From contig NZ_CP133319.1 in assembly GCF_038811545.1 (NCBI RefSeq), forward strand, positions 1,550,001 through 1,614,000: a stretch of 64,000 nucleotides of DNA, written 5' to 3'. The position numbers and the translations under genes were made by a program. This DNA is from Rhodoligotrophos sp. CJ14. GTDB taxonomy: Bacteria; Pseudomonadota; Alphaproteobacteria; Rhizobiales; Im1. Positions 15,042 through 34,186 of this stretch are shown in pieces (positions within the stretch are counted from its first letter, which is position 1; each line of letters begins with the position of its first letter). The notes under the pieces were generated by a model. The model did no database searches, had not been told where the DNA came from, and saw nothing but the letters and a program-made list of their open reading frames with translations.

Positions 15042-15917
15042 TCAGGCCAGCCAGCGCTTGCGCCGGCGATAATGCTTCACATCCTTGAACGAGCGACGTC
15101 CGGCACCGGAGATGCCGAGATAGAACTCGCGCACATCCTCATTCGCCCGCAGATTATCAGCCGTGCCGTCCAGCACGATCCGGCCATTCTCCATGATATA
15201 GCCATAATCCGCATAGCGCAGCGCTATACTCGTGTTCTGCTCGGCAAGCAGGAATGACACCCTTTCGGTCTTGTTCAGGTTCTGAACGATCGAGAAGATC
15301 TCCTCGACGATTTGCGGCGCGAGCCCCATGGACGGCTCGTCCAGCAGCACCATGGCGGGCCGGGACATGAGCGCCCGGCCGATTGCGCACATCTGCTGCT
15401 CACCTCCGGAAGTATAGCCGGCCTGCGAGCTGCGCCGATCCCTCAGGCGTGGGAAATAGCTGTAGACCATCTCCAGATCGCGCGCGATGGCAGCCCGGCC
15501 ATCCCGCCGCGTGAAGGCGCCCGTCAGCAGGTTCTCCTCGATGGTGAGATGCCCGAAACAGTGGCGCCCCTCCATCACCTGAATGCAGCCGCGGCGCACC
15601 AGCTCGTTCGGTGAGAGCTTCTCGACGCGCTCACCCCTGAACTCGATCGAGCCCTTGGTGACCTCGCCGCGTTCGGCCTGCAGCAGGTTCGAGATCGCCT
15701 TGAGCGTCGTCGTCTTGCCCGCGCCATTGGCACCCAGCAGCGCGACGATATGGCCCTCAGGCACGCTCAGCGACACGCCCTTGAGCACTAGGATGACGTG
15801 ATCGTAGATCACCTCGATATTGTTGACCGAAAGGATCGCCCCGCCGGGGGCATCCGGCACCGCATCCCCTGCCCTATCTGTTCCCGATGCTGTCGCAGCG
15901 ATGGTCTGGCTCATCAT
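15042..15917 (-). CDS. Liv-type ABC transporter ATP-binding protein (LivF-like)
   Basis: This 291-residue ATPase of the branched-chain amino acid/acyl acid (HAAT) ABC family energises uptake at the inner membrane. It has Walker A GANGAGKTT (62-70), signature YTSGGEQQMCAIGRAL (~167) and Walker B AMVLLDEPSMGLAP. An N-terminal extension of ~28 residues is rich in Ala/Asp. It is the last gene of the ligase-livG-livH-livM-SBP-livF operon and the partner of the LivG-type ATPase. Ligase and liv genes in one operon suggest an organic acid rather than an amino acid as cargo. Confidence 0.92.
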   Translation of the reverse strand: MMSQTIAATASGTDRAGDAVPDAPGGAILSVNNIEVIYDHVILVLKGVSLSVPEGHIVALLGANGAGKTTTLKAISNLLQAERGEVTKGSIEFRGERVEKLSPNELVRRGCIQVMEGRHCFGHLTIEENLLTGAFTRRDGRAAIARDLEMVYSYFPRLRDRRSSQAGYTSGGEQQMCAIGRALMSRPAMVLLDEPSMGLAPQIVEEIFSIVQNLNKTERVSFLLAEQNTSIALRYADYGYIMENGRIVLDGTADNLRANEDVREFYLGISGAGRRSFKDVKHYRRRKRWLA

Positions 15918-15992
15918 TGGCTCCGGGGCTGTTTGGAGATCATCGCACGGGCATCCGGGTTCGGGAGCCAGAACCCGTGCGATGAACCAAGC

Positions 15993-17318
15993 TCAGTTTG
16001 TAGCGCAAGCCTCCGTCCGCTCCGGCCAGGGCTGGTTCGCGGCCACATATTCCTTGGCCGCCTTGTCGAGAAGCGGTTGCACCACGTCCGTCATCGGCGA
16101 GAACCATTCGCTGGCCTGCTCGTATTCCTTGCCGTTCCAGCGCTGGATATAGAGCTGCGTATGGCCGGAATGGTCGGTGCAGGTGAGCTTCACCGGCTGG
16201 GCGAAATTGGCAAAACCGATCTCGGCCCAGCGCTCAGGCGTTATCTGGAGGTTCTCGAGGCCAATCCGCATATCCTCGCCCGTGATCACCTTCTTGCCCG
16301 TCAGCTTCTGCGCAGTGCGAATGGCCTCCGCGATCAGCACCGAGTTATAGACGCCGCGGTTATAAAGATTGGTCCCGACGAGATCCGGGCTCGAAACCTG
16401 GCTGAGGCCCTTGTCCACCACGAACTTGCGGATATCGTTCAGGGCCGGGAAATCCGACCGCGCCGAGTGGAAGTTGAGGATCATGAAGCCCTTCGCCCCC
16501 TCGCCCGTCTGGCGCGCGTCATCCTCCGTCGGCCACCACATGGAGATCAGCTTGTCCATGGGGAAGCGGGTCTTGGCGGCCTCCTTGATGGCCGTCGGGT
16601 TCATGGCACCCCAGCCTTGCAGATAGACCCAGTCCGGCCTGTCGCGGCGCACATTGAGCCAGGTCGATGACTGGTTCTGCATCTGCTGAGCCGGCACCGG
16701 ATATTTCAGGAGCTCGAACCCATATTTGCTGGCCAGCTGTTCGAGCAGCGGTATTGGCTCGCGACCATAGCCTGCATCAAGAAAGACGAAGCCGATCTTC
16801 TTGCCCTTGAGCTTGTCGAGCCCCCCTTCCGTATTGGCGATGTGCAGGATGATTGCCGATGCGCCATCCCAATAGGTGTCCGGCGGGTTGAAGATCCAGG
16901 GGAACACGTTGCCATCCGCGGCGGCCGAAAGCCCATAGGCCATGGAGAGGATCGGGATCTTGTCCTTGGCCGCAAGCGGGATCAGCGGCAAGGTAATGCC
17001 CGTCGACCACGGGTTGAACACCACCGGCTTGCGCCCGCGCATGGCTTGATAGCATTCGACGCCTTTTTGCGTGTCATAGCCCGTCTCGCATTCCTCGATT
17101 TCGAGCCTCACGCCGCCGATGCCCCCGTCGCGCTCGTTGAGCATGGTCAGGTAATCGCGCAGTCCGTTGGCGATGTGGGTCCCGGATCCGGCGAACGGCC
17201 CGGTGCGATAGGTCGGCAGCGGGATAAAGATCGAATCCTGCGCCTTCACGGGAACGCTAGCAGGTGCCGATAAGGCGACCGCCAGCGCGGCGGCGAGCCC
17301 CAACAGTTTCGCTTTCAT
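15993..17318 (-). CDS. Periplasmic substrate-binding protein of the Liv-type ABC transporter
   Basis: This 441-residue type I periplasmic binding protein has a signal peptide (MKAKLLGLAAALAVALSAP, cut near VKA-QDS). The mature chain starts FIPLPTYRTGPFAGSGTHIANGLRDYLTMLNERDGGIGG, typical of HAAT receptors, with the second-lobe pattern VFLDAGYGREPIPLLEQLA and a C-terminal disulfide candidate (RTEACATN). It is longer than LivK (~370), like receptors for aromatic or other organic acids. It lies between the livM- and livF-type genes. A second receptor for possibly the same transporter is at 27353-28561. The ligand cannot be deduced. Confidence 0.9.
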   Translation of the reverse strand: MKAKLLGLAAALAVALSAPASVPVKAQDSIFIPLPTYRTGPFAGSGTHIANGLRDYLTMLNERDGGIGGVRLEIEECETGYDTQKGVECYQAMRGRKPVVFNPWSTGITLPLIPLAAKDKIPILSMAYGLSAAADGNVFPWIFNPPDTYWDGASAIILHIANTEGGLDKLKGKKIGFVFLDAGYGREPIPLLEQLASKYGFELLKYPVPAQQMQNQSSTWLNVRRDRPDWVYLQGWGAMNPTAIKEAAKTRFPMDKLISMWWPTEDDARQTGEGAKGFMILNFHSARSDFPALNDIRKFVVDKGLSQVSSPDLVGTNLYNRGVYNSVLIAEAIRTAQKLTGKKVITGEDMRIGLENLQITPERWAEIGFANFAQPVKLTCTDHSGHTQLYIQRWNGKEYEQASEWFSPMTDVVQPLLDKAAKEYVAANQPWPERTEACATN

Positions 17319-17378
17319 CTGCCTTGAACCTCCTCCCTTGATTGCACCGCATCTTCAGGCGGTGTCCGCGGCCGCGCC

Positions 17379-18455
17379 TCAATAAGGGAACGGCCAAACC
17401 CTGAGTTTCTGCTTGCCCACCTGCCACAGCCGCGCGAGCCCATGCGGCTCGACGATGAGGAAGGCGATGATCAGCGCGCCGATCACAATGAACGACAGAT
17501 GCTCGACCGTTTCAGCCCCAATCGCGATGCCAAAGACGCTCGGTATGGCGCGCAGGAATGCCGGCAGGATCCAGATGAAGGCGGCCCCCAGAAACGAGCC
17601 GACCAGCGAGCCCAACCCGCCGATGATCACCATGAACAGGATCTGGAACGACAGATTGATGGAAAAGGCGGTTGGCTCCGTTGCCCCCAGCCAGAAGAAC
17701 ACCATCGCAGCCCCGGCGACCCCGCAATAGAAGGACGAGACCGCAAAGGCGAGCAATTTGGTCTGGAAGAGCTTGACCCCCATCAGCTCGGCCGCGATGT
17801 CCATGTCGCGCACCATCATCCACGACCGGCCGATGCGCCCGCGCACCAGGTTCGAGGCGATCCAGGTCATGACGACCACGATGGTGAGCACGACCAGATA
17901 ACGCGCGGTCGCATTGGCACCGGGTCCGGTGAGGACGATGTTCAGTCCACGCCGCGCAGGGGCCTCGATCGCGCCAGACGGATTGTAATTGTAGAGCCAC
18001 GGGATGCGGATGAAGCACCATTCCAGAAAGAACTGCGCGGCAAGCGTCGTCACCACGAGATAGAAGCCCTTGATCCGCAGGGAGGGCAGCCCGAACAGCA
18101 CCCCAATGGCGGCGGACACGAAGCCCGACGCCAGCACCAGGAGAATGATGTCGGCATCTGGAAAGAAGGTGGTGAGCTTGTAGCAGGCATAGGCGCCGAC
18201 CCCCATGAAGGCGCCGGTGCCGAGGGACAATTGCCCGGCATAGCCCGTGAGAAGATTGAGCCCGATCGTGGCAAGCGCCAGGATCAGGAACGGGATCATG
18301 ATCGTGCTGATGAAGAAATTTGTCGCAAACAGCGGGATGCCGATAAAGGCGACCGCCAGGATGATGGCAATCCCGATCCGATCCTGCAGGATCGGAAAGA
18401 TCGATTGATCCGCCGCGTAGCTCGTCTTGAATTGACCGGCTTCCCGATAGAACAT
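17379..18455 (-). CDS. Liv-type ABC transporter permease (LivM-like)
   Basis: This 358-residue inner-membrane permease has about nine to ten hydrophobic segments. The conserved LivM core reads LATIGLNLLTGYAGQLSLGTGAFMGVGAYACYKLT, and a cytoplasmic loop with MVRDMDIAAELMGVKLFQTKLLAFAVSSFYCGVAGA is the EAA-like ATPase contact. It ends with the GLARLWQVGKQKLRVWPFPY tail common in alphaproteobacterial LivM proteins. It starts 3 bp after the LivH-type stop codon, so the two permeases are co-translated. Confidence 0.92.
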   Translation of the reverse strand: MFYREAGQFKTSYAADQSIFPILQDRIGIAIILAVAFIGIPLFATNFFISTIMIPFLILALATIGLNLLTGYAGQLSLGTGAFMGVGAYACYKLTTFFPDADIILLVLASGFVSAAIGVLFGLPSLRIKGFYLVVTTLAAQFFLEWCFIRIPWLYNYNPSGAIEAPARRGLNIVLTGPGANATARYLVVLTIVVVMTWIASNLVRGRIGRSWMMVRDMDIAAELMGVKLFQTKLLAFAVSSFYCGVAGAAMVFFWLGATEPTAFSINLSFQILFMVIIGGLGSLVGSFLGAAFIWILPAFLRAIPSVFGIAIGAETVEHLSFIVIGALIIAFLIVEPHGLARLWQVGKQKLRVWPFPY

Positions 18456-18458
18456 CGC

Positions 18459-19415
18459 TCACACCCGCTCGATGATGCGCTCGCCGAACAGGCCCTGCGG
18501 CCGGAACAGCAGGACGATGAGCGCGATGAAATAGGCAAGCCAGGTCTCGATCCCGCCGCCGATCAGCGGCCCCCAATAGATTTCGCCGAGCTTCTCCCCG
18601 ATCCCGATGATCAGCCCGCCAACGATGGCGCCGGGAATGGAGGTGAGCCCCCCGAGCACCAGAACCGGCAGCGCCTTGAGTGCCACGATCTGGAGCGCGA
18701 AGGATACATCCGACCGCGCGCCCCACATGATGCCTGTGGCCAGCGCCACGATGCCGGCGGCAAACCACACGATCACCCAGATCTGGTTGAGCGAGATGCC
18801 GACCGACAGCGCCGCCTGGTGGTCGTCCGCCACCGCCCGCAGCGCCCGGCCGATGCGGGTCGAATGAAAGAACACCGCGAGTGATCCCACCATGATGATG
18901 GCGATCACCGCGGCCGCGATATCGATCTGGTTCAGGATGACGAGCCCACCGAACAGCTCGAGATCATAGGAGCCGGTGGGCAGACCCAGCTCTTGCGTGA
19001 TCATGACCTTGGGCTCGCCGCCGAAGATGAACTCACCGAGCCCGATGAGCAGATAGGTGAGCCCGATCGTCGCCATGAGCAGGATGATGTCCGGCTGATT
19101 GACCAGCGGCCGCAGCACCACCCTTTCGATCGTCACCGCCAGGAGGAACATGATGCCGATGCAGATCAGCAGGGCAAGATAGGCCGGCACTCCCGCCTCG
19201 TGTAGACCCACCAGCGAGAGCACTGCGAACACCACCATGATGCCTTGGGCGAAGTTGAACACGCCCGATGCCTTGAAAATCAGCACAAAGCCGAGCGCGA
19301 TCAGCGAATAGAGGATGCCGGCGACGAACCCTTCCCAGAGCACTTGGAGGAAGAAGTCCGGGGTCGTCGCCATCTGCATGAAAGGATCAACGAACAGGCT
19401 ATAGAGCAGGCTCAT
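18459..19415 (-). CDS. Liv-type ABC transporter permease (LivH-like)
   Basis: This 318-residue inner-membrane permease has eight or so hydrophobic segments. The LivH core includes LWEGFVAGILYSLIALGFVLIFKASGVFNFAQG near the N-terminus and the coupling loop STRIGRALRAVADDHQAALSVGISLNQIWVIVWFAAGIVA. It pairs with the LivM-type protein to form the channel. Its start overlaps the LivG-type stop by 4 bp (ATGA), showing translational coupling within the operon. Confidence 0.93.
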   Translation of the reverse strand: MSLLYSLFVDPFMQMATTPDFFLQVLWEGFVAGILYSLIALGFVLIFKASGVFNFAQGIMVVFAVLSLVGLHEAGVPAYLALLICIGIMFLLAVTIERVVLRPLVNQPDIILLMATIGLTYLLIGLGEFIFGGEPKVMITQELGLPTGSYDLELFGGLVILNQIDIAAAVIAIIMVGSLAVFFHSTRIGRALRAVADDHQAALSVGISLNQIWVIVWFAAGIVALATGIMWGARSDVSFALQIVALKALPVLVLGGLTSIPGAIVGGLIIGIGEKLGEIYWGPLIGGGIETWLAYFIALIVLLFRPQGLFGERIIERV

Positions 19416-20248
19416 GCGTCCGGCACCCCCAGATAGGCATCGATCACCGCCTGGTTCGTCCTGACCTCGTCCGGCACCCCATCGGCGATCTTGCGTCCAT
19501 ATTCGAGCACCACCACCCGGTCGGAGAGGTCCATGACCACGCCCATATCATGCTCGATCAGGGCAATGGTGGTGCCGAACTGGTCGCGCACATCGAGGAT
19601 GAAACGGCACATATCCTCCTTCTCCTCGACATTCATGCCGGCCATCGGCTCATCCAGCAGCAGAAGATCTGGTTCGAGCGCCAGCGCCCGGCCGAGTTCG
19701 ACGCGCTTCTGCAGCCCATAGGGAAGCCTGCCCACCGGGGTCTTGCGGATATGCTCGATCTTGAGGAAATCGATGATCTCTTCCACCCGGCGCCTATGGG
19801 CGATTTCCTCCGCCCGCGCCGGCCCGTAATGGATCATCTGCCAGAAGAAGCCGCGATGCATCTTGAGCTGCCGGCCGGACATGATGTTGTCGAGCGTGGT
19901 CATGCCCTTGAACAGCGCGACATTCTGGAAGGTCCGGGCAATGCCGCCGGCGGCTGCCTCATGGGGCCGCATTTTCCGCCGCGTCTCGCCCTTGAAGGTG
20001 ATCGTTCCCTCCTGGGGCGTGTAGAAGCCGTTGATGATGTTGAGCATCGACGTCTTGCCCGCACCATTGGGGCCGATAATGGCGCGGATCTCGCCCTTGG
20101 CGATATCGAAGGAGACATCCGAGATCGCCTTGATGCCACCGAACGACAACGACACATTGCGCACGTCCAGCAGAATCTCCCGCCGTGCGGCCTCCGGCGC
20201 GGGCGCCCGCGTGGGACTGGGAGCGGTCTTGACGGCAGCCTCGCTCAT
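19412..20248 (-). CDS. Liv-type ABC transporter ATP-binding protein (LivG-like)
   Basis: This 278-residue ATPase has Walker A GPNGAGKTS (59-67), the characteristic LivG signature LPYGLQKRVELGRALA in place of the canonical LSGGQ, Walker B LLLLDEPMAGMN and the switch His in IALIEHDMGVVMDL. It pairs with the LivF-type subunit. It overlaps the preceding ligase gene and the following permease gene by 4 bp each. An Ala/Pro-rich leader of ~22 residues is unusual but common in rhizobial homologues. Confidence 0.93.
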   Translation of the reverse strand: MSEAAVKTAPSPTRAPAPEAARREILLDVRNVSLSFGGIKAISDVSFDIAKGEIRAIIGPNGAGKTSMLNIINGFYTPQEGTITFKGETRRKMRPHEAAAGGIARTFQNVALFKGMTTLDNIMSGRQLKMHRGFFWQMIHYGPARAEEIAHRRRVEEIIDFLKIEHIRKTPVGRLPYGLQKRVELGRALALEPDLLLLDEPMAGMNVEEKEDMCRFILDVRDQFGTTIALIEHDMGVVMDLSDRVVVLEYGRKIADGVPDEVRTNQAVIDAYLGVPDA

Positions 20249-22221
20249 TCCGCAGCCTCCCGGAGCGACATGGGTTCCACCTCCATGTCCCGGATTTTCA
20301 CATTGGCGCGGATAACGCCCTTGCGACCATCCTCGAAGGTCACCTCGGTGGCGATATCGCAGCTCTGAGCGCCGCTATAGAGCGCCTCGATCAACGGGCC
20401 GTAGCGCTCGGCAATGAAGCCGCGCCGCACCTTCTGAGTCCGGGTGAGCTCGCCATCATCCGGGTCGAGCTCCTTATGCAGAATGAGAAAGCGGCGGATC
20501 TGGCTTGCCGCCATCTGCGGCTCCGCGACGAGATCCGCATTCACCCTCGCGACGTCCGCAGCGATCATGTCATAGACCAGCGGATGGCCGGCAAGTTCCT
20601 GATAGGACGCATAGGCGATATTGTTGCGCTCGGCCCAATTGCCCACGGCCGTCAAATCGATATTGATGAAGGCGGTCACAAAGTCTCGTTCATTGCCGAA
20701 CGCCACGGCCTCCTTGACCCTCGGGAAGAACTTCAGCTTGTTCTCGATATATTTCGGCGCAAACAGCGCGCCATTGTTGAGCCGACCCACATCTTTTGCA
20801 CGATCGATGATCTTGAGCTGCCCATCTTCGGTGAAAAATCCGGCATCCCCCGTTTTGACATAGCCATCCTCGGTGAGGAGCTGCGCCGTGTTCTCCGGAT
20901 CCTTGAAATAACCGACCAGCATGCCGGGCGACTTGAACTGGACCTCCCCGCTCGGCGCGATGCGAATATCCACGTCCCGTAGAGGCGGCCCCACCGCATC
21001 CGAGCGCACTTGCCCATCATGCTGCATGGTGAGAAAGACGCTTGCCTCGGTCTGCCCGTACAGCTGCTTCAGGTTGACCCCGATCGAGCGATAGAAGGAG
21101 AAGAGGTCCGGTCCGATCGCCTCTCCCGCCGTATAGGCGACCCGGATGCGCGAGAAGCCGAGCACGTTCTTGAGCGGCCCATAGACCAGGATATGCCCCA
21201 ACGCATAGTTGAGCCGGCCAGCAAGCCCTACTGGCTCGCCATTCAAGATCTTCTCGCCATGGCGCTTCGCCACCGCAAGGAAATGGTGAAACAGACGCTG
21301 CTTGAGCCGGCCCGCGTCCTCCATCCGGATCATGACGGTCGTGAGCAGGTTTTCGAACACCCGCGGCGGCGCGAAATAGAAGCTCGGCCCGATCTCCTTC
21401 AGGTCCTGCAGCACAGTCTCTTCGCTTTCGGGACAAGAGATGCAGAACCCTGCCCAATGCGCCTGGCCATAGGAGAAGATGTGATCGCCCGCCCAGGCGA
21501 TCGGCAGATAGGCGAGCATTTCCTCTCGCTCGGTGAGCTGATCGAGCAGGCAGGCGTTATGCGCGGTGGTGATCAGATTGTCATGGGACAGCATCACGCC
21601 CTTGGGACGTCCCGTGGTGCCGGACGTATAGAGGATCACTGCGGTATCTGATCCCTGCCCCTCCGCGATACCCTCCTCCCAGCGTGTTCGCGCCGACGGG
21701 TCATGAGCCAGGGCCTTGGTGCCGAGATCCTGAACCTCGGCGAAGCTCTTCAGCCGACGATGGTCGTAATCCAGAAGGCCGCGTGGATCGTCATAGATGA
21801 TCTGCTTGAGCGCGAGCCCTTGGGGAAGGGAAAGCAGCTTGTCGACCTGCTCCTGGTCCTCGACCACCGCGAAGCGGGCTTCTGCATGCTCGAGCACATA
21901 GCCCATCTCTTCAGCCACCGCGTCCGCATAGATCGGCACCGGGATCGCGCCGAGCGATTGTGCGGCGGTGATGCTCCAGTAGAGGTGCGGCCTGTTCCGG
22001 CCGATAATGGCAAGCTTGTCGCCCGGCTCGAGCCCGAATGCCTTGAGACCGAGGGCGAAAGCCGCGATCTCATCCAGCACTTCGGCCCAGCTCCAGCTCT
22101 GCCAGATCCCGAGATCCTTATGCCGAATCGATGGACGCTGCCCCCTTTCACGGGCATTCCGCAGCAACAGTTTGGGAAAGGTATTGCCGGCGGCGCCGAC
22201 ACTGCCCTTCGCATTGGCCAT
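20245..22221 (-). CDS. AMP-forming acyl-CoA ligase (long-chain FadD type), first gene of the liv operon
   Basis: This 658-residue ANL-family ligase converts an imported carboxylic acid to its CoA thioester. Features are SWAEVLDEIAAFALGL at the start, the P-loop ILYTSGTTGRPKG (196-208), a long-chain-type gate segment, LYGQTEASVF as the adenine motif, and TGDAGFFTEDGQLKIIDRAKDV as the hinge. It lacks the usual C-terminal PXTXXGK lysine motif and has ELTRTQKVRRGFIAERY instead, as in bubblegum/ACSBG-like long-chain ligases. It starts the operon ligase-livG-livH-livM-SBP-livF and overlaps livG by 4 bp, so import and activation are coupled. Two palindromic operators lie upstream, in the region shared with the divergent acyl-CoA dehydrogenase gene. 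Confidence 0.92.
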   Translation of the reverse strand: MANAKGSVGAAGNTFPKLLLRNARERGQRPSIRHKDLGIWQSWSWAEVLDEIAAFALGLKAFGLEPGDKLAIIGRNRPHLYWSITAAQSLGAIPVPIYADAVAEEMGYVLEHAEARFAVVEDQEQVDKLLSLPQGLALKQIIYDDPRGLLDYDHRRLKSFAEVQDLGTKALAHDPSARTRWEEGIAEGQGSDTAVILYTSGTTGRPKGVMLSHDNLITTAHNACLLDQLTEREEMLAYLPIAWAGDHIFSYGQAHWAGFCISCPESEETVLQDLKEIGPSFYFAPPRVFENLLTTVMIRMEDAGRLKQRLFHHFLAVAKRHGEKILNGEPVGLAGRLNYALGHILVYGPLKNVLGFSRIRVAYTAGEAIGPDLFSFYRSIGVNLKQLYGQTEASVFLTMQHDGQVRSDAVGPPLRDVDIRIAPSGEVQFKSPGMLVGYFKDPENTAQLLTEDGYVKTGDAGFFTEDGQLKIIDRAKDVGRLNNGALFAPKYIENKLKFFPRVKEAVAFGNERDFVTAFINIDLTAVGNWAERNNIAYASYQELAGHPLVYDMIAADVARVNADLVAEPQMAASQIRRFLILHKELDPDDGELTRTQKVRRGFIAERYGPLIEALYSGAQSCDIATEVTFEDGRKGVIRANVKIRDMEVEPMSLREAAE

Positions 22222-22414
22222 GAGCCTGTTCCCTCCAACTCGCGCCCATCTCTTGATGGATGGTGCGCCGCTGCACGTCCGGCTTAATGCCGCTCATGCC
22301 GCTGTGTTCTGATGGACTTGAGCCCCCACGCCGTGGCGGTAAGTCTCTTTTTCTGCGATCATGCGCCTTTGCGCAGGCCGCGCAACCCCGACGAAGGGCG
22401 GGTTGCGCTCGGCG

Positions 22415-22430
22415 CCTAACGCATGTTAGG
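22415..22430. promoter_or_regulatory. TetR-type operator, copy 1 (CCTAACGCATGTTAGG)
   Basis: Perfect 6-bp inverted arms CCTAAC/GTTAGG are separated by 4 bp in the divergent region between the acyl-CoA ligase/liv operon and the acyl-CoA dehydrogenase gene. The same arms and spacer recur at 22440 and 27272, all inside promoters of this cluster, which also encodes two TetR repressors. Confidence 0.8.
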
Positions 22431-22439
22431 TTCTACGGC

Positions 22440-22455
22440 CCTAACATCTGTTAGG
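22440..22455. promoter_or_regulatory. TetR-type operator, copy 2 (CCTAACATCTGTTAGG)
   Basis: This is the second palindrome with identical arms, 25 bp centre-to-centre from copy 1. The pair could bind two repressor dimers on similar faces of the helix (about 2.4 turns). Confidence 0.8.
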
Positions 22456-22514
22456 TCAAGCTTTATCGCCACAACAAGCGCACCCGCGACGCTGCAATGA
22501 GAGGACCACGATCG

Positions 22515-24338: not shown

Positions 24339-24397
24339 CTCGCGATCCGACAGGGTCTTGCCCCTTCCACCATCCGCCAGGATGAACCCAAAGATAT

Positions 24398-25093: not shown

Positions 25094-25587
25094 CCCGTCT
25101 GCACGCCCTCATCTCCCTCTGTCACGGCGCCCCAGGAGCCGGAAGGATGCCGCTCGCGCCGCATCAGCAAGCGCGCGGTGCCCTCTTGCACCACTCTGTC
25201 ATCCTGATCAAGGATCGTGAAAGCGAGCCCCAGCAGGCCCCTTTTCGGGTCTTTGACGTCCCGCTTTTCCGTAACATCGATCACAGCCCGGATCGTATCT
25301 CCTGCGCGAACCGGCGCCCGGAAATCCCAGGTTACACCCAGCAGTGCCACCACCGTGCCATCGATGAGATCAAGCCGCGAGGCAAGTCCGAACGCGATGC
25401 CGATTCCCATCGGCCCATGCGCGATCCGGCCGCCGAACGCCGTTGCCCGCGCGAAGACCTCATCCGTATGCACCGGATTATAGTCGCCGGTCAGCCCGGA
25501 GAAACTGGCGATGTCGAATTCGGTGATCGTCCGCGCCGGCGTCACGAAACGCTGGCCGACCGAGAATTCGCCGAACAGGCGTCCCAT
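25090..25587 (-). CDS. MaoC-like enoyl-CoA hydratase
   Basis: This 165-residue single hotdog domain is of the R-specific enoyl-CoA hydratase type. The catalytic Asp/His are in FSGLTGDYNPVHTDEVFA, followed by FGGRIAHGPMGIGIAFGL and VTWDFRAPVRAGDTIRAVIDVTEKR. It hydrates a 2-enoyl-CoA, the product expected from the acyl-CoA dehydrogenase in this cluster. The ATG at 25587 is preferred. It lies 40 bp after the ligase gene and overlaps the tetR-type gene. Confidence 0.9.
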   Translation of the reverse strand: MGRLFGEFSVGQRFVTPARTITEFDIASFSGLTGDYNPVHTDEVFARATAFGGRIAHGPMGIGIAFGLASRLDLIDGTVVALLGVTWDFRAPVRAGDTIRAVIDVTEKRDVKDPKRGLLGLAFTILDQDDRVVQEGTARLLMRRERHPSGSWGAVTEGDEGVQTG

Positions 25588-25627
25588 TACGCAAACCTCC
25601 ACCGGTCCCGGGCTATGATCCCGCCCA

Positions 25628-27250: not shown

Positions 27251-27271
27251 GTGTTTTCTCTTGATCGCCTT

Positions 27272-27287
27272 CCTAACGACTGTTAGG
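27272..27287. promoter_or_regulatory. TetR-type operator, copy 3 (CCTAACGACTGTTAGG)
   Basis: The same 6-4-6 palindrome as copies 1 and 2 lies 22 bp before the ligase start and 66 bp before the solute-binding protein start. It can control the divergent operons ligase-maoC-tetR-tetR and SBP-carboxylase-SDR together. Confidence 0.8.
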
Positions 27288-27352
27288 TATAACGCCTACA
27301 GAAAACGGTCGCAAGCCGCTTCGGACTTAAGCGAGCCATGGGAGGACGCCAG

Positions 27353-28561
27353 ATGAGGAAACCCTTTTGGATCACGACACTCGGCGCTGTACTTTTCGCG
27401 ACCAGCGCTGCGGCGCAGGTCTCGGACGATGTGGTCAAGATCGGTGTGCTGAACGACCGCTCCGGCATCTATTCCGATTTGTCCGGTGAGGGATCCGTCG
27501 TGGCGGCCCGCATGGCGGTCGAGGATTTCGGTGGCAACGTGCTGGACAAGCCAATCGAGATCATTTCCGCCGACCACCAGAACAAGCCCGACGTGGGCTC
27601 TGCCATCGCCACCCGCTGGTATGATGCGGAAAATGTGGACGCGATCGTCGACGTGCCGGTCTCATCCGTAGCCTTGGCGGTGCAGGAGGTGGCCAAGCAG
27701 CGCGAGCACATCGTGATGTTCTCATCGGCCGGCAGCTCCGACCTGACCGGGAAAGCCTGCTCGCCCTATGGCACCCAGTGGGCCTTCGACAGCATTGCCC
27801 TGGCGAAAGGCACAGCGACAGCGGTCACCAGATCCGGCGGTGACACGTGGTTTTTCCTCACGGCAGACTATGCCTTTGGCATCGCCATGGAAGCCGATGC
27901 CAAGCGCTACATCGATGAGGTCGGCGGCAAGGTGCTCGGCAGCGTGCACCATCCTCAAGCAACCGTCGACTTCTCCTCATATCTCCTGCAGGCACAGAAT
28001 TCCGGCGCCAAGGTCATCGGCCTCGCCAATGCCGGCAACGACACCATCAACGCAATCAAGGGCGCCTCTGAATTCGGCATCACCTCCAGCGGGCAGAAGC
28101 TCGCAGCGATGCTGATCTTCCTGTCGGATGTGCACTCCCTCGGCCTCGATGTCTCCCAGGGCCTCAACCTCACAGAAAGCTTCTACTGGGACATGACCGA
28201 CGACACCCGCGCCTGGTCGAAGCGCTTCGCCGAGCGCATGAACGGACGCATGCCCACCATGGCCCATGCGGGCGTCTATAGTGCGGTCACCCATTACCTC
28301 AAGGCCATCAAGGCGGCGGGAACCGATGAGGGCAAGGCGGTTGCCGCGAAGATGCAGGAGATCAAGGTGTCAGATCCCGTCCTGCCCTCCGCCGAGGTGC
28401 GCAAGGACGGCCGGGTGATGCGGCCCTTCTATCTCTTCGAGGTCAAGGCGCCGGCCGAATCGAAGGGCGAATATGACTATTACAAGCTCGTTCGCGAGAT
28501 CCCCGCGGAAGAGGCCGCCCGGTCCCTGAGCGAAAGCCCCTGTCCGCTGGTCAACAAGTGA
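27353..28561 (+). CDS. Second Liv-type periplasmic substrate-binding protein
   Basis: This 402-residue type I binding protein has signal peptide MRKPFWITTLGAVLFATSAAA cut before QVSDD. The mature chain reads VVKIGVLNDRSGIYSDLSGEGSVVAARMAVEDFGG, then AAVARSG-like lobe 2 features (SGGDTWFFLTADYAFGIAMEADAKRYIDEVGG) and a HAAT receptor C-terminus. It belongs to the long-length receptors associated with aromatic or acyl acids. The ATG at 27353 fits GGAGG at 27341-27345. No permease lies beside it; the permeases at 17379-19415 share the same operator type, so they are the likely partners. Confidence 0.9.
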   Translation: MRKPFWITTLGAVLFATSAAAQVSDDVVKIGVLNDRSGIYSDLSGEGSVVAARMAVEDFGGNVLDKPIEIISADHQNKPDVGSAIATRWYDAENVDAIVDVPVSSVALAVQEVAKQREHIVMFSSAGSSDLTGKACSPYGTQWAFDSIALAKGTATAVTRSGGDTWFFLTADYAFGIAMEADAKRYIDEVGGKVLGSVHHPQATVDFSSYLLQAQNSGAKVIGLANAGNDTINAIKGASEFGITSSGQKLAAMLIFLSDVHSLGLDVSQGLNLTESFYWDMTDDTRAWSKRFAERMNGRMPTMAHAGVYSAVTHYLKAIKAAGTDEGKAVAAKMQEIKVSDPVLPSAEVRKDGRVMRPFYLFEVKAPAESKGEYDYYKLVREIPAEEAARSLSESPCPLVNK

Positions 28562-28607
28562 GCGGGCCTTATCACGACATGAATGGATGAATGTGGAGAG
28601 TGGCGGA

Positions 28608-30206
28608 ATGCCGGTGTTGGAAAGTTCAGCGCAGCTCGGACCGAAATTCGAGGCAAATGACCGCGCCTATGCGGAACTGCTCGAGACCTTGCGCGACCGC
28701 CACCGGCATGTGCTGAAAGGCGGCGGAGAGCGGCTGCGCCAGCGCCATATCGAGCGCAACAAGATCCCCGTGCGCGAGCGCATCGACCACCTCCTCGATC
28801 CGCTCTCTCCCTTTCTGGAACTCTCGCCGCTCGCCGCCTGGGGCCTCTATGGCAATGAGGTGCCCTGTGCCGGCATCGTCACCGGCATCGGCATGGTCGC
28901 GGGCGTTGCCTGCATGATCATTGCCAATGATGCGACAGTAAAGGGCGGCTCATTCTTCCACGAGACTGTCAAGAAGCACCTCCGCGCCCAGGAGATCGCC
29001 TTCGAGAACCACCTGCCCTGCATCTATCTCGTGGATTGCGGCGGCGCCTTCCTGCCCGAGCAGGACCGGGTCTTTCCGGATCGGGATCATTTTGGCGGCA
29101 CCTTCTATCAGCAATGCCGCATGTCTGCGGCAGGCCTGCCGCAGATCTCGGCGGTTTTCGGCGGCTGCACCGCGGGCGGCGCCTATATTCCAGCCCTCTC
29201 GGATGAAGTGGTGATGGTGCGCGGCACGGGCCGCATTCATCTCGGCGGACCGCCCATCGTCAAGGCGGCGATCAACGAGATCGTGGATGGCGAGACCCTG
29301 GGCGGGGCCGAGATGCATTCCCAGGTCTCCGGCGTCTCCGATTATCTCGCACATAGCGAGCTGGAGGCGATCGCCAAGGTCCGTGATATCGTAGCCGCGC
29401 TCAACTGGCCGGCCAAACCCTCCTTGCGGAGCCGACCTCCGAAGCCGCCGCGCTATGACCCCGCTGAAATACCGGGGATTGTCGGCACCGATCTCAAGCA
29501 GCCCTTCGATGTGCGCGAGGTGATCGCGCGCATGGTGGACGACAGCGAATTCCAGGAATTCAAGCCGGCCTATGGCGCGACCTTGGTCTGCGGCTTCGCC
29601 TGGATCCATGGCGAGCCCGTGGGCATCCTCGCCAATAACGGTGTTCTCTTCTCGGAATCCTCCGTCAAGGGCGCCCATTTCATCGAGCTCTGCGACCAGC
29701 GCAACATCCCGCTCCTGTTCCTCCAGAACATCACCGGCTTCATGGTGGGCACGGAAGCCGAGCGCGGCGGCATCGCCAAACATTCCGCCAAGCTCGTCTA
29801 TGCCGTCTCCAATTCCCGCGTGCCCCGCTATACCGTGATCATCGGCGGCTCCTACGGCGCGGGCAATTACGGCATGTGCGGCCGGGGCTTTCAGCCCCGT
29901 TTCCTCTTCGCCTGGCCCAATGCGCGTATCGCCACCATGAGCGCGGATGTGGCCGCAACCGTCGTGACCGATTTGCGGCGTGCGAGCCTCACCCGCGATG
30001 CGGCGGATGAGGAAGAAATAGCCAAGCTCGACCGGAAGACCCGCGCGCAGTTCGAGGAGCAGAGCACCCCCTATTACGCCACCGCCCGCCTGTGGGATGA
30101 CGGGATCATCGAGCCTGCTCAGACCCGTGACGTGCTCGGCCTCTGCTTGGCCCTTGCCGCGCGCGAGATCGATCTGCCCGGCAATCGCCCCGTCTACCGG
30201 ATGTAA
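28608..30206 (+). CDS. Acyl-CoA carboxylase beta subunit (carboxyltransferase; MCC/GCC type)
   Basis: This 532-residue carboxyltransferase moves CO2 from carboxybiotin to an acyl-CoA. It shows RQRHIERNKIPVRERIDHLLD, LPCIYLVDCGGAFLPEQD, FGGCTAGGAYIPALSDEVVMV and GGSYGAGNYGMCGRGFQPRFLFAWPNARI, as in 3-methylcrotonyl-CoA and geranyl-CoA carboxylases. With the alpha subunit downstream (4-bp gap) it forms a complete enzyme. The context (IVD-type dehydrogenase, acyl ligases) suggests a beta-branched enoyl-CoA substrate. I cannot separate MCC from geranyl-CoA carboxylase by eye. The start at 28608 is preferred over 28587 on spacing to GGAGAG. Confidence 0.92.
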   Translation: MPVLESSAQLGPKFEANDRAYAELLETLRDRHRHVLKGGGERLRQRHIERNKIPVRERIDHLLDPLSPFLELSPLAAWGLYGNEVPCAGIVTGIGMVAGVACMIIANDATVKGGSFFHETVKKHLRAQEIAFENHLPCIYLVDCGGAFLPEQDRVFPDRDHFGGTFYQQCRMSAAGLPQISAVFGGCTAGGAYIPALSDEVVMVRGTGRIHLGGPPIVKAAINEIVDGETLGGAEMHSQVSGVSDYLAHSELEAIAKVRDIVAALNWPAKPSLRSRPPKPPRYDPAEIPGIVGTDLKQPFDVREVIARMVDDSEFQEFKPAYGATLVCGFAWIHGEPVGILANNGVLFSESSVKGAHFIELCDQRNIPLLFLQNITGFMVGTEAERGGIAKHSAKLVYAVSNSRVPRYTVIIGGSYGAGNYGMCGRGFQPRFLFAWPNARIATMSADVAATVVTDLRRASLTRDAADEEEIAKLDRKTRAQFEEQSTPYYATARLWDDGIIEPAQTRDVLGLCLALAAREIDLPGNRPVYRM

Positions 30207-30210
30207 GCCT

Positions 30211-32205
30211 ATGATCTCCTCCCTGCTCATTGCCAACCGCGGCGAGATCGCCGTGCGGATCATCAGGACCTGTCGCAGGCTTGGCATCCGCACCATTGCC
30301 GTCTTCTCCGATGCCGACCGCAACGCACCCCATGTGGCGGCCGCTGATCAGGCGGTGAGGATCGGTCCCGCCGCAGCGCGCGACAGCTACTTGAGGCTCG
30401 ACGCGATCATGGATGCGGCCGCCAGGACCGGTGCCGAGGCCATTCACCCTGGCTATGGCTTCCTGTCCGAACGTCCGGAACTCGCGCTAAGCTGCGCTGA
30501 GGCCGGCATCGTCTTCGTCGGCCCCTCCGCCGCCTGCATCGAGGCCATGGGCCAGAAGATCGGCTCCAAGCTCATTGCGGAGAAGGCTGGCGTTGCGAGC
30601 GTCCCCGGCTATATCGGCGATGATCAGTCAGCCGATCGCCTGGTAAAGGAAGCGCTGCGCATAGGCCTACCCGTCATGGTCAAGGCTTCGGCAGGCGGTG
30701 GCGGCAAAGGCATGCGCCGCGTGCTGACGGAGGCTGAACTGCGGCCCGCAATCGAGATCGCCCGGCGTGAGGCCGAGGCATCTTTCGGTGATCCCTCGCT
30801 GCTGATCGAGAAGCTCGTCATGCGGCCGCGACACCTCGAGGTGCAGGTCGCAGGCGACAAGCACGGGCACGTCATCCATCTCTTTGAGCGCGATTGCTCG
30901 GTCCAGCGCAACAACCAGAAGCTCATCGAGGAAGCACCGGCCCCCAACCTTGATCCGGCGATCCGCGAGAAGCTGCTGGAACGCGCGGTCCGTCTTGCCC
31001 GCGCCATCGACTACGACAATCTCGGCACGGTCGAGTTTATTCTCGAGGATGGCGAGGCCGAGCCCTGGTTCCTCGAAATGAACACGCGCCTTCAGGTGGA
31101 GCATCCCGTCACCGAGGCGATCACCGGCTTCGACCTGGTGGAATGGCAATTGCGCATTGCCTCGGGCGAGCCGCTGCCGGTCGATCAGGACCGGGTGCGC
31201 GCCAGGGGGCATGCGATCGAAGCCCGAATCACCGCCGAGCAGGCCGACCATGACTTCCGCCCGGATGCGGGAGCGATCCTCGCCTATCACGAGCCCCCCA
31301 GCATCCGTGTTGACAGTGGCATAGAGGCTGGCAGCGAAGTCACCCTGTTTTACGATTCCATGCTCGCCAAGGCGATCGCATCGGGCGAGGACCGGAACGA
31401 GGCACGCACCAAGCTTGCCTCGGCGCTGCGGGATTTCACGCTGCTGGGTCCTGCGACCACCATTCCCTTCCTCGCGGACTCGCTCGAACATGCGATCTTC
31501 GCGGAAGGTCGCGCCACCACCCGCTTCATCGCCGAAGCCTTCCCGGATGGCTGGCAGCGGCCCAAGCCGAAGCTGCGCCTCGCCCGCGCCGCCGCAACCC
31601 TGATCGCTGGCGAACGAGCATCGGAGCAAACGAGCGCCTCTGCCTGGACGCAGCTCCAAGGTTTCCGGGTGCTTGCTCCCGCAGGCGGACGCGCCGAAAC
31701 CCATCTCGTCATCTCCACAGCGGGAGCACCTCCGGCAAAGGTCACCGTTTTCGCCGAGACCGGCGGCGCGCGCGGCATCCGCGATGATGAGGGCGAGTTG
31801 ATCCTGAACCTGCGCCACACCGGCAACCGGCTAGAGCTTGAAACGGCCGATCAGGTTCTGCGCGGCTTTTTCGATCGCCAGGGCGGGATGATCCGCCTGG
31901 GCTTTGGCGACGAGACCTATGCCTTCGAGATCGCATCCGCTGCCGCGGCCGCCCTCGGCGCCGCAGCCAAAGGTGCAGGCTCCGGTGCGATCACGGCTGC
32001 CCTTCCCGGCCTCATTTCCGAGGTCAATGTGGCCGAGGGCGATCACGTCGAGGCGGGCCAGCAGGTGATTGTGCTGGAATCGATGAAGCTCTTCATTCCG
32101 CTCACCGCCGATGTGTCGGGGACAGTGAGCGAGATCGCCTGTCGGCCGGGCCAGACCGTTCAGAGCGGCCAGCGGCTTCTCGTCATCGACCCCGATCCCG
32201 CGTGA
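30211..32205 (+). CDS. Acyl-CoA carboxylase alpha subunit (biotin carboxylase + biotin carrier)
   Basis: This 664-residue protein has a biotin carboxylase domain (SLLIANRGEIAVRIIRTCRRLGI, ATP-grasp loop KASAGGGGKGMRRV, EMNTRLQVEHPVTEAITGFDLVEWQ; residues 1-450), a linker/BT region (450-585) and a biotinyl domain (590-660). The biotinylated Lys is in VLESMKLFIPL, where the usual AMKM is replaced by SMKL. Length and order match the methylcrotonyl/geranyl-CoA carboxylase alpha subunits. It is co-transcribed with the beta subunit and overlaps the region before the SDR gene. Confidence 0.93.
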   Translation: MISSLLIANRGEIAVRIIRTCRRLGIRTIAVFSDADRNAPHVAAADQAVRIGPAAARDSYLRLDAIMDAAARTGAEAIHPGYGFLSERPELALSCAEAGIVFVGPSAACIEAMGQKIGSKLIAEKAGVASVPGYIGDDQSADRLVKEALRIGLPVMVKASAGGGGKGMRRVLTEAELRPAIEIARREAEASFGDPSLLIEKLVMRPRHLEVQVAGDKHGHVIHLFERDCSVQRNNQKLIEEAPAPNLDPAIREKLLERAVRLARAIDYDNLGTVEFILEDGEAEPWFLEMNTRLQVEHPVTEAITGFDLVEWQLRIASGEPLPVDQDRVRARGHAIEARITAEQADHDFRPDAGAILAYHEPPSIRVDSGIEAGSEVTLFYDSMLAKAIASGEDRNEARTKLASALRDFTLLGPATTIPFLADSLEHAIFAEGRATTRFIAEAFPDGWQRPKPKLRLARAAATLIAGERASEQTSASAWTQLQGFRVLAPAGGRAETHLVISTAGAPPAKVTVFAETGGARGIRDDEGELILNLRHTGNRLELETADQVLRGFFDRQGGMIRLGFGDETYAFEIASAAAAALGAAAKGAGSGAITAALPGLISEVNVAEGDHVEAGQQVIVLESMKLFIPLTADVSGTVSEIACRPGQTVQSGQRLLVIDPDPA

Positions 32206-32237
32206 GGGGCGACCGCGTCCGAGAGACAGAGATAGCC

Positions 32238-32993
32238 ATGCAGCAGAATGTGCTCATCACCGGCGGAACCTCCGGCATCGGCCTTGCAACCGCCATGCGC
32301 TTTGCCGAACAGGGCGCGCGCCTTATCGTGAACGGGCGCAACGCTGAGCGGGGTGCCGAGGCCTGCGCGGCCGTTCGGGCGCACTATCCCGATGCCGATA
32401 TCGAATTCATCGCCGCCGATCTGTCGGAGCAGGATGAGGCTGCAAGTTTGATGCAAGGATCTGCCACTCACTTTGGCGGCACGATCCATGTCCTCGTGAA
32501 TTCGGCCGGCGGCGACTTCACACCGGCTTTGTTCCACGAGACGGACCTCCAGACGATCGAGCGGGTCGTGCGCCATTGGCTGCTCTCGGCGATGTTCAGC
32601 TGCCGCTGCGCCCTGCCCCACATGGCAACCGGGAGTGCTATTGTGAATGTTGCCTCCGACGCAGCGAAAGTCCCAACCCCGGGCGAGACGGTCATCGGCG
32701 CAGCCTTGGCCGGCATCACCATGTTCTCGCGCACGCTTGCCATGGAGGCGAAGCGCCAGGGCATACGGGTGAATGTCGTAACCCCCTCGCTCGTGGCGAA
32801 CACCCGGACCCATGCGCGTATCACCGCCGGCGGCTTCAGCGCCAAGCTGTTCGAGAAAGCGGCGCGGGCGGCCCATCTGGGTGTGCCGGAGCCTGAGGAC
32901 GTGGCCGATCTCATCATCTTCCTGGCAGGCCCGCAGGCAAAGCGGATCACCGGCCAGGTGGTCAGCGTCAACGGAGGCATCTCCGCAGGCTGA
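32238..32993 (+). CDS. SDR-family protein lacking the catalytic Tyr and Lys
   Basis: This 251-residue Rossmann protein has an intact NAD(P)-binding TGGTSGIGLATA motif (10-21), an NSAGGD loop and the active-site Ser140 (NVASDAAK). The Tyr-x-x-x-Lys motif is replaced: the aligned stretch GETVIGAALAGITMF has Ile153 for Tyr and Leu157 for Lys. A classical 3-ketoacyl/hydroxyacyl reductase mechanism is therefore unlikely. It may bind the cofactor non-catalytically or use other residues. The end (GGIS) and IRVNVVTPSLV are FabG-like. It is co-oriented 32 bp after the carboxylase alpha gene, so it is probably in the same operon. Confidence 0.88.
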   Translation: MQQNVLITGGTSGIGLATAMRFAEQGARLIVNGRNAERGAEACAAVRAHYPDADIEFIAADLSEQDEAASLMQGSATHFGGTIHVLVNSAGGDFTPALFHETDLQTIERVVRHWLLSAMFSCRCALPHMATGSAIVNVASDAAKVPTPGETVIGAALAGITMFSRTLAMEAKRQGIRVNVVTPSLVANTRTHARITAGGFSAKLFEKAARAAHLGVPEPEDVADLIIFLAGPQAKRITGQVVSVNGGISAG

Positions 32994-33115
32994 TATGCGC
33001 GTATGGCATATTGGCCCCTGCCAACCAGCACTTGACCCGCGGCGCATCAAGGCGGACGCTTTCGCTGACCCGCGTCAAACAATGCGGGATGTGACTGCGC
33101 AAGGGAGGGCGTGAA

Positions 33116-34186
33116 ATGCCTTTGGCGTTCGATCGGCGGCTTGTCAACCTGTTGGAACTTGAGCATCCCATCATCCTCGCGCCGATGGCCGGTGTGGTGA
33201 CCCCCGCCTTGGCGGCGGCGGTCTCGAATGCGGGCGGACTTGGCTCCATGGGACTGGCAACCAGCACCGTCGATGCCGCGCGCCAGATGATCAATGCCTA
33301 TCGCGCCCAGAGCAACCGTCCCTTCAACGTCAATCTCTTCTGTCATAAGCCCGCGGTCGCGAACCCCGCCGTCGAATCTGCATGGCTGGCGCGTCTACGC
33401 CCGGAATTCGAACGCTTCGGCGCTGAGCCGCCCTCACAGATAACGGAGATCTACAAGACCTTCCTCGACAATGACGAGATGCTCGCCATGCTGCTCGAGG
33501 AGAAGCCCAAGGTGGTCAGCCTGCATTTCGGCATCCCTTCAGCGGATAAGATCAGGGCGCTGAAAGCCGCGGGAATTACCCTGTTCGCAACCGCGACAAA
33601 TCTGCGGGAAGCACAAGCGGTAGCGGCAGCAGGCGTGGATGCCGTCGTGGCGCAAGGCTATGAGGCCGGTGGACATCGCGGCGTATTTGATCCCGAGGCG
33701 CCGGACCAGCAGCTGGGCACCATGGCCTTGACGCGCCTCCTCGTCCGCCACCTCGATATTCCCGTCATCGCCGCTGGTGGAATCATGGACGGCGCCGGCA
33801 TTGCGGCCGTCCTGCGCCTCGGTGCCGCCGCAGCCCAGCTCGGGACCGCCTTCATCGCCTGCCCGGAATCCCAGGCCGATGACGGCTACCGCGCTGCCCT
33901 GCGGAGTGAGGCTGCCCAGCACACGGTCTTAACCTCCGCCATTTCGGGAAGACCCGCTCGCAGCCTCAGCAACCGCTTCACCGCCCTTGGCGCCACCGTC
34001 TCGCCCAAGGACATTCCCGCCTACCCCATTGCCTATGATGCGGGCAAAGCCCTGATCGCGGCCGCCAAGGCCGCGGGCGAGACCGGCTATGGTGCCCATT
34101 GGGCAGGTCAAGGAGCACCGCTTTCCCGAGCGATGCCCGCAAAGGAGCTGATGCAGGAGCTGGTGACCGAGCTCGAGGCGGCCTGA
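33116..34186 (+). CDS. Nitronate monooxygenase-like FMN protein
   Basis: This 356-residue TIM-barrel flavoprotein is of the NMO/2-nitropropane dioxygenase/FabK family: ELEHPIILAPMAGVVTPALAAAVSNAGGLGSMG, VVSLHFGIPS, VVAQGYEAGGHRGVF with the catalytic-type His, and IPVIAAGGIMDGAGIAAVLRLGAAAAQLGTAFIACPES. NMOs oxidise alkyl nitronates, but many members near acyl-CoA genes have unknown or enoyl-reductase-like roles. It lies 122 bp after the SDR gene in the same direction and may be the last gene of the carboxylase operon. Confidence 0.88.
   Translation: MPLAFDRRLVNLLELEHPIILAPMAGVVTPALAAAVSNAGGLGSMGLATSTVDAARQMINAYRAQSNRPFNVNLFCHKPAVANPAVESAWLARLRPEFERFGAEPPSQITEIYKTFLDNDEMLAMLLEEKPKVVSLHFGIPSADKIRALKAAGITLFATATNLREAQAVAAAGVDAVVAQGYEAGGHRGVFDPEAPDQQLGTMALTRLLVRHLDIPVIAAGGIMDGAGIAAVLRLGAAAAQLGTAFIACPESQADDGYRAALRSEAAQHTVLTSAISGRPARSLSNRFTALGATVSPKDIPAYPIAYDAGKALIAAAKAAGETGYGAHWAGQGAPLSRAMPAKELMQELVTELEAA

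Follow-up and report, generated by a model that had tools for sequence, protein, structure and literature searches.

Methyl branches at the beta carbon block ordinary beta-oxidation, and to our knowledge methylcrotonyl-CoA carboxylase (MCC) and geranyl-CoA carboxylase (GCC) are the two gamma-carboxylases generally cited for passing them. The described systems closest to the locus analyzed here are the liu cluster (LiuA-E), the atu cluster (AtuA-G), the Rhizobium leguminosarum pRLTp73_3 operon (isovaleryl-CoA dehydrogenase (IVD), carboxyltransferase, biotin carboxylase, MaoC and CoA ester lyase, in that order) and the mycobacterial bkaR regulon (Rv2502c-Rv2498c: accD1-accA1-fadE19-Rv2499c-citE; PMC3920632). 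With these we compared a block of genes at positions 15042-34186 of a 64-kb window, the whole stretch of DNA analyzed, from Rhodoligotrophos sp. CJ14 (C1:1550001-1614000 of the source genome, G000, a single contig of 4.81 Mb); feature positions are those of the window. The block encodes a Liv-type ATP-binding cassette (ABC) importer with two binding proteins, two acyl-CoA ligases, a dehydrogenase, two TetR-family regulators, a MaoC-type hydratase and an acyl-CoA carboxylase. With a rough probability of 0.55, we read it as one TetR-controlled catabolic regulon that would serve an exogenous short beta-methyl-branched acid (of isovalerate or 3-methylcrotonate size, or slightly larger) separately from leucine degradation. 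An initial annotation of this DNA had likewise proposed a dedicated import-activation-carboxylation unit distinct from liu and atu, and the shared palindrome, the separate carboxylase clade and the gene content described below bear this out.

By the features tested, the sequence of the block makes it a member of neither the liu, the atu nor the bkaR operon. Like the block, the liu cluster combines a dehydrogenase with beta and alpha carboxylase subunits, but the block carries neither a crotonase nor a 3-hydroxy-3-methylglutaryl-CoA (HMG-CoA) lyase, and its carboxylase belongs to another clade; liu membership was rejected on the beta-subunit trees and on a separate LiuB-clade gene at 300 kb of the genome. 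The atu cluster also shares a dehydrogenase and a carboxylase with the block, and that of the source genome is likewise flanked by a Liv importer. Atu membership was nevertheless rejected, as the block has no AtuA, no crotonase and no GCC signature (Gly and a 3-residue deletion), and a true atu cluster lies at 4.57 Mb. The bkaR regulon, in the parts of its published account drawn on here, resembles the block in having a TetR regulator, an MCC-family carboxylase, a dehydrogenase and a non-crotonase hydratase, and in Mycobacterium tuberculosis it is adjoined by the ligase gene fadD35, as the block also has ligases (PMC3920632). Unlike bkaR, the block has a carboxylase clade of its own and a Liv importer with a pair of binding proteins, it lacks CitE and bkd genes, and its promoters carry CCTAAC-N4-GTTAGG as opposed to the GTTA-N-T-N4-A-N-TAAC operator given there (PMC3920632). 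The R. leguminosarum operon shares the dehydrogenase, carboxylase and MaoC and shows a MaoC plus CitE-like gene order in an alphaproteobacterium; it differs in that its carboxyltransferase falls in the LiuB/AccD1 group, in having bkd-type genes and an AraC regulator nearby, and in having no importer in the stretch viewed.

The carboxyltransferase carries much of this distinction. Its closest matches in the PDB are Mycobacterium AccD1 and Pseudomonas MCC (~658 bits), followed by GCC (462) and propionyl-CoA carboxylase (PCC; ~257). That the enzyme is of the PCC type, carboxylating at the alpha carbon, is therefore very improbable: the carboxyltransferase fold is common to PCC, but the MCC family is ahead by 400 bits, a score on which this candidate was rejected; in addition, the neighbouring dehydrogenase and hydratase suit gamma carboxylation, and a more distant beta subunit at 22 kb of the genome (34% identical) is probably a PCC. 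In a 141-row tree, a branch with an approximate likelihood-ratio (SH-aLRT) support of 99 set 64 window-type rows apart; LiuB-type and actinobacterial rows, the R. leguminosarum operon and the source-genome gene at 300 kb fell outside. When the long rows were omitted (AtuC, PCC-like and Achromobacter rows, the other carboxylase of Polaromonas JS666 and two more), 64 window-type rows were separated from 66 LiuB/AccD1-type rows with a branch support of 100. Both trees were built by a quick method, and the long branches of AtuC, PCC-like, JS666 and Achromobacter rows are unsure in the larger one; two pairs among the 64 rows are identical, and one locus (L057), which has no single reading frame long enough, is absent. 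By sequence, then, the carboxylase forms its own clade apart from LiuB/AccD1-type enzymes, with LiuB and AtuC both outside it, as the initial annotation had suggested checking. That annotation had also held that its proposal would fail if carboxylase and dehydrogenase grouped tightly with LiuB and LiuA and a liuC/liuE pair lay elsewhere under the same control; for the carboxylase part we found the separate clade, no HMG-CoA lyase over the cut-off in the genome and no operator site with ≤1 mismatch outside the block.

The window-type carboxylase group is rare and scattered. Only 11 of 385 genomes of the class, the source included, pass an E value of 1e-220 for the carboxylase, and the clade members that have a name span Alpha-, Beta- and Gammaproteobacteria, plus a single record with the label Bacteroidota. 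An environmental Bosea also has the carboxylase. Among 80 listed loci, 41 (≥61% identity) were taken as window-type and the remaining 39 (57-61%) as a comparison group; those 41, five genomes and eight plasmid loci make up the 54 related loci used below, five of which are under 11 kb. All six genomes with a window-type gene in one comparison, the source included, hold a second gene 56-59% identical, in the LiuB range, of which the source-genome one alone was placed in the tree. This gene (C1:300349-301884) is an orphan that directly follows gatA/gatB, and the surrounding 20 kb contains no matched alpha subunit; two alpha-subunit candidates lie at 283.8 and 4380.7 kb. In the open-access literature, covered mostly at title and abstract level, no description of this carboxylase clade or of the operator was recognised.

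Residues lining the substrate pocket were then read from the alignment. Phe191 of MCC, a Gly in GCC, governs access of geranyl-CoA, and MCC has a 3-residue insertion before it, according to the part of the structural report cited here (Jurado et al. 2015, PMC4673880). Both the Phe and the insertion are present in 64 of 64 clade rows, and the GCC signature (Gly for this Phe, with a 3-residue deletion before it) is absent from all of them. Three Phe of the AccD1 motif RQDEVFPDREHFGRIF are described as critical for methylcrotonyl-CoA in the corresponding part of a second study (Ehebauer et al. 2015, PMC4347857), and all three are again retained in 64 of 64 rows, which makes a short 3-methyl-2-enoyl-CoA likelier than a geranyl-sized substrate. 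Retention of these Phe, together with AccD1 and PaMCC as best PDB matches, would also fit a second ordinary MCC for leucine or isovalerate that had moved under an importer, as would the set of TetR, carboxyltransferase, biotin carboxylase, dehydrogenase, hydratase and ligase shared with bkaR in the described part of that regulon (PMC3920632). We consider this distinctly improbable, as the clade lies apart from AccD1-/LiuB-type rows, a LiuB-clade gene is present elsewhere in the genome, no bkd genes were identified in the block and the operator differs from the BkaR core.

The second line of evidence is regulatory. The palindrome CCTAAC-N4-GTTAGG occurs in both divergent promoters of the block in three exact copies (22415, 22440 and 27272), versus a mean of 0.01 in shuffled sequence, and these copies are the sole sites with ≤1 mismatch in the 4.81-Mb genome. 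A reversed control pattern has 15 sites in the same genome, so the argument for an operator is one of site placement, not of number. Across the 54 related loci, 27 sites were found in 22, and in 19 loci a site lies upstream of the carboxylase at a distance of ≤1.8 kb, a position in which three control patterns, with 3, 0 and 1 sites overall, had none. TetR proteins of JS666, Sulfitobacter (carboxylase side) and Nitratireductor are 41-48% identical to the window TetR pair. The Nitratireductor plasmid has a second site, with one mismatch, ahead of an SDR-ATPase-FadD-permease-permease-ATPase operon (SDR, short-chain dehydrogenase/reductase), while on the JS666 plasmid an exact site precedes ATPase-FadD-permease-permease-ATPase-binding protein, and these sites tie importer and ligase to the operator independently. 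In genome G176, a site with one mismatch lies ahead of a gene run that includes MaoC, CitE, TetR, the beta and alpha subunits and a dehydrogenase. A site in G441 that is off the carboxylase lies beside a TetR gene (36%), with thiolases and a ligase (54% identical to the window short ligase) nearby, and one in G150, also away from the carboxylase, lies between thiolase-like and mutase-like genes. No neighbour of one of the two G176 sites or of the G535 site matched our comparison panel, and the carboxylase loci of G441 and G150 have no site. That importer and carboxylase are adjacent merely by chance is hardly credible: a counted LivM is near just 8 of the 54 related carboxylases, but the palindrome is common to both promoters and also stands ahead of the importer operons in Nitratireductor and Polaromonas. 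Taken together, these placements suggest that the import, ligase and carboxylase genes probably form one regulon under one palindrome.

The dedicated importer, which the initial annotation had taken as a distinctive addition, is not unusual in this genome. The true atu cluster (C1:4565000-4584900) contains AtuA, a crotonase, a dehydrogenase and GCC-type beta and alpha subunits beside a divergent Liv-type importer, and a cluster at 1.09 Mb (C1:1090000-1109900) combines a Liv importer and FadD with a three-subunit acyl-CoA carboxylase, a gene resembling nitronate monooxygenase (NMO), an acyl-CoA ligase and a metallo-beta-lactamase (MBL)-fold protein; the carboxylase of this second cluster has Ala at the MCC Phe191 position.

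The scanned block proteins include no crotonase, HMG-CoA lyase or CitE, and MaoC is the sole hydratase among them. The lack of the first two had already been remarked upon, but the missing crotonase, then treated as a gap, need not be one: another hydratase replaces it in the bkaR operon, and MaoC does so in the R. leguminosarum operon. In the relevant part of the bkaR description, the hydratase Rv2499c and CitE (Rv2498c) stand in the places of crotonase and HMG-CoA lyase (PMC3920632). Of the 54 loci, 49 have an alpha subunit close by, 37 a dehydrogenase of ≥58% identity and 34 a TetR of ≥38% identity. At identity cut-offs of 40-42% for hydratases and lyases, R. leguminosarum-type MaoC was counted in 16 loci, 10 with CitE and none with HMG-CoA lyase, and a crotonase of the type found between carboxylase genes in 13, none with CitE and one with HMG-CoA lyase; no locus has both hydratases. 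This analysis gives the missing steps a likely answer, namely that relatives have either a crotonase or MaoC, the latter in many cases accompanied by a CitE-like lyase. Wang et al. are said to have established in 2019 that Rv2498c is a lyase and Rv2499c a MaoC hydratase. In the whole source genome, the HMG-CoA lyase profile, which matches in all 14 control genomes with 3 over the cut-off, gave none over the cut-off and two weak matches (62 and 50 bits). A search for CitE-like proteins found eight HpcH/HpaI proteins. At 4.71 Mb lies a MaoC-CitE pair whose MaoC is 50% identical to that of R. leguminosarum; when the 10 CitE genes of relatives were compared with the panel, 7 matched the CitE of this pair best.

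Assembled in order, the unit is real, probably single, and by its sequence should work like an MCC-type branched-acid pathway. TetR would bind the palindrome; the acid would be bound by the two binding proteins, imported through the LivFGHM channel and activated to its CoA ester by the FadD-type or the acetate/MbcS-like ligase. The IVD/long-chain acyl-CoA dehydrogenase (LCAD)-type enzyme would then yield a 3-methyl-2-enoyl-CoA, to which the alpha/beta carboxylase would add CO2 at the gamma carbon and a MaoC hydratase would add water, and a CitE-like C-C lyase, most likely from the 4.71-Mb pair, would cleave the product. An intermediate acyl-CoA probably frees TetR from the operators.

Several observations weigh against this reading. 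In the pocket, LiuB/AccD1 rows have an Arg (66 of 67) and an Ile (67 of 67) directly ahead of the last Phe of the AccD1 motif. All 64 clade rows have other residues there (Gly, Asn, Thr, Ser or Gln for Arg; Thr, Ser or Ala for Ile), so that the substrate may not be methylcrotonyl-CoA. By these residues the pocket appears small but altered, perhaps suited to a short 3-methyl-2-enoyl-CoA other than methylcrotonyl-CoA. In the 141-row tree AtuC adjoins the 64-row clade (support 81, branch 2.85), a place that is unsure. The operator is missing at ≤1 mismatch from 32 of the 54 loci, and the nearest genome (G001, same genus, carboxylase 86% identical) has no site at its carboxylase locus and three on other contigs. 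A search of 26 genomes or records found sites in 19 and none in 7, many sites are away from the carboxylase, and the reversed control pattern outnumbers the operator in most; both JS666 sites are distant from that plasmid's own window-type carboxylase. As to the lower pathway, both counted hydratases are missing from the vicinity in 25 of the 54 loci, crotonases of other kinds (e.g. in L056, L064 and L081) being outside the count; of the 13 crotonase loci, 8 are on plasmids, and some of these are near-copies. The Sulfitobacter and Nitratireductor plasmids bear both HMG-CoA lyase and citryl-CoA lyase farther off, in another carboxylase operon, so the split between MaoC-CitE and crotonase is not absolute. 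The window MaoC differs from the paralogue that follows the carboxylase in relatives, being of a paralogous type found in 9 of the 54 loci, 4 of these with the short ligase, and the 4.71-Mb MaoC-CitE pair has no operator site and is thus probably shared with other pathways. Finally, no relative of binding protein 1 (cut-off 28%) or of the NMO gene (cut-off 45%) was counted in any of the 54 loci, and the dehydrogenases of G015, G066 and L069 are just 34-35% identical to that of the window.

Plasmid-borne relatives raise a different possibility, that the regulon serves the breakdown of terpenoids or isoprenoid hydrocarbons, in which the window carboxylase would deal with a single beta-methyl branch among several on a larger skeleton, alongside the three-subunit carboxylase and atu. 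Window-type carboxylases are plasmid-borne in Polaromonas, Sulfitobacter, Nitratireductor, Roseovarius, Paracoccus, Frigidibacter and Pseudosulfitobacter, and a single plasmid may have as many as three carboxylases. Six of the eight plasmid loci (Polaromonas JS666, Sulfitobacter, Nitratireductor, Roseovarius, Paracoccus and Pseudosulfitobacter DSM 107133) have one or two further carboxylases, accompanied by AtuA, HMG-CoA lyase, thiolase-type genes or Liv importers with FadD; the Frigidibacter stretch has none, and the eighth plasmid record stops at the operon. The islands of JS666, Sulfitobacter BSw21498 and Nitratireductor thuwali share with the block the carboxylase clade, a related TetR, the operator pattern and a Liv importer with FadD, but they differ from it in having a crotonase and not MaoC between the carboxylase genes, further carboxylases and HMG-CoA lyase. 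JS666, again unlike the block, has a cytochrome P450 and alcohol and aldehyde dehydrogenases, and an exact operator copy lies between its pyrroloquinoline quinone (PQQ) alcohol dehydrogenase and aldehyde dehydrogenase, near the P450. We take this P450 to be a CYP153A alkane hydroxylase. A setting of this kind also exists in the source genome, with its three-subunit carboxylase bearing Ala in place of the pocket Phe and its true atu cluster. For the window itself we nevertheless consider terpenoid breakdown rather unlikely, as its enzyme retains the Phe by which MCC keeps out geranyl-CoA, the scan of the block proteins identified neither an oxygenase nor an alcohol dehydrogenase, and the operator, at ≤1 mismatch, is confined to the block in the source genome. 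The "terpenoid-like" acid suggested by the initial annotation is thus disfavoured for the window enzyme, while the plasmid islands and the operator placement in JS666 keep a terpenoid or hydrocarbon reading alive for the family.

Some further features of these islands were noted. JS666 plasmid 2 (L198/L233) holds two carboxylase sets, an HMG-CoA lyase, the P450, the PQQ alcohol dehydrogenase and a Liv importer, with two exact operator copies between operons, and a JS666 protein scores near but under the cyclohexanecarboxyl-CoA dehydrogenase cut-off (542 of 575 bits). Genes for a B12-dependent acyl-CoA mutase lie beside the window-type carboxylase on the Sulfitobacter plasmid (L199, 9738-12844), and a mutase-like pair (32% and 43%) lies beside two exact operator copies in G150 (L237, 9936-12090). 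Such mutases might feed quaternary-carbon acids into the pathway; a search of the open-access literature on pivalyl-CoA mutase found nothing. Ten proteins (eight recurrent carboxylase neighbours and two from Sulfitobacter) were scanned for substrate hints. No clear lead emerged; the scan named, among others, a tripartite ATP-independent periplasmic (TRAP) binding protein (DctP) and a B12-dependent acyl-CoA mutase.

The features of the block are collected in Table 1. Genes were called from family scans (NCBIfam/Pfam) of the block proteins, with the dehydrogenase and MaoC assigned by translation and PDB matches, and every gene named in the initial annotation is encoded there. The same scans found no AtuA (PF07287), and bkd genes were likewise not identified among the scanned proteins. 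The alpha-subunit open reading frame opens at 30097, but its domain begins at Met39, and its true start is therefore probably 30211.

Table 1. Features of the block at 15042-34186, in window coordinates
Feature	Positions	Strand	Basis
LivF-type ABC ATPase	15042..15917	-	NCBIfam/Pfam
Periplasmic binding protein 1, Peripla_BP_6	15993..17318	-	Family scan; best PDB match 4ru0
LivM-type permease	17379..18455	-	Family scan
LivH-type permease	18459..19415	-	Family scan
LivG-type ABC ATPase	19412..20248	-	Family scan
FadD-type acyl-CoA ligase, probable first gene of importer operon	20245..22221	-	Family scan
Operator-like palindrome CCTAACGCATGTTAGG, divergent promoter of fadD and acyl-CoA dehydrogenase	22415..22430		Pattern search
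Operator-like palindrome CCTAACATCTGTTAGG, same divergent promoter	22440..22455		Pattern search
Acyl-CoA dehydrogenase, IVD/LCAD type	22497..23702	+	Translation, PDB matches, residue alignment
TetR-family regulator 1, start codon uncertain, overlaps next gene	23727..24446	-	Family scan
TetR-family regulator 2, 56% identical to regulator 1	24398..25093	-	Family scan
MaoC-type hydratase	25090..25602	-	Translation, PDB matches
Acetate/MbcS-like acyl-CoA ligase, below both curated cut-offs	25628..27250	-	Family scan
Operator-like palindrome CCTAACGACTGTTAGG, divergent promoter of ligase and binding protein	27272..27287		Pattern search
Periplasmic binding protein 2	27338..28561	+	Family scan; best PDB matches 3i09, 3n0w
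Acyl-CoA carboxylase carboxyltransferase (beta), third MCC-family clade	28587..30206	+	Family scan, PDB, trees
Biotin carboxylase and biotin carboxyl carrier protein (alpha), ESMKL biotinylation-like motif	30211..32205	+	Family scan; start inferred from domain boundary
SDR-fold protein, true start possibly 32238	32202..32993	+	Family scan
NMO/FabK-like flavoprotein, last gene of the plus-strand run	33116..34186	+	Family scan

Two of these proteins were compared at the level of individual residues. SDRs have a catalytic Tyr and Lys. The window SDR and five relatives, likewise conserved next to the carboxylase (L056, L069, L087, G015 and G066; 43-49% identical), all lack them, with Tyr changed to Ile and Lys to Leu or Met in the Tyr-x3-Lys motif, and by these residues the window protein is a conserved non-classical SDR. 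In the dehydrogenase, the Glu of NFQNERIVIS aligns with a Glu of LCAD, and Gly stands where the butyryl-CoA dehydrogenase-like 5ol2 has Glu, positions that we take to be catalytic; by this residue pattern the enzyme resembles the IVD/LCAD type. Elsewhere in the window, the G+C fraction falls to 0.50 at 40001-42000, all other 2-kb steps being ≥0.59.

A broader proposal, which we offer tentatively and with the odds somewhat against it, is that the window carboxylase represents a third gamma-carboxylating lineage, with a TetR/operator code common to alpha- and betaproteobacteria, in a module mobile between chromosomes and plasmids that would process beta-methyl-branched, possibly isoprenoid, skeletons and act on some 3-methyl-2-enoyl-CoA that is not methylcrotonyl-CoA. 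Its lower pathway would be either R-type (MaoC-CitE) or S-type (crotonase and HMG-CoA lyase), R-type and S-type being stereochemistry labels for such pathways. If this is true, such a separately regulated third clade would imply a further dedicated bacterial route for branched or isoprenoid acids, plasmid-bearing marine bacteria included, and the operator would provide both a sequence tag for finding such regulons in other genomes and a handle on their inducer and substrate.

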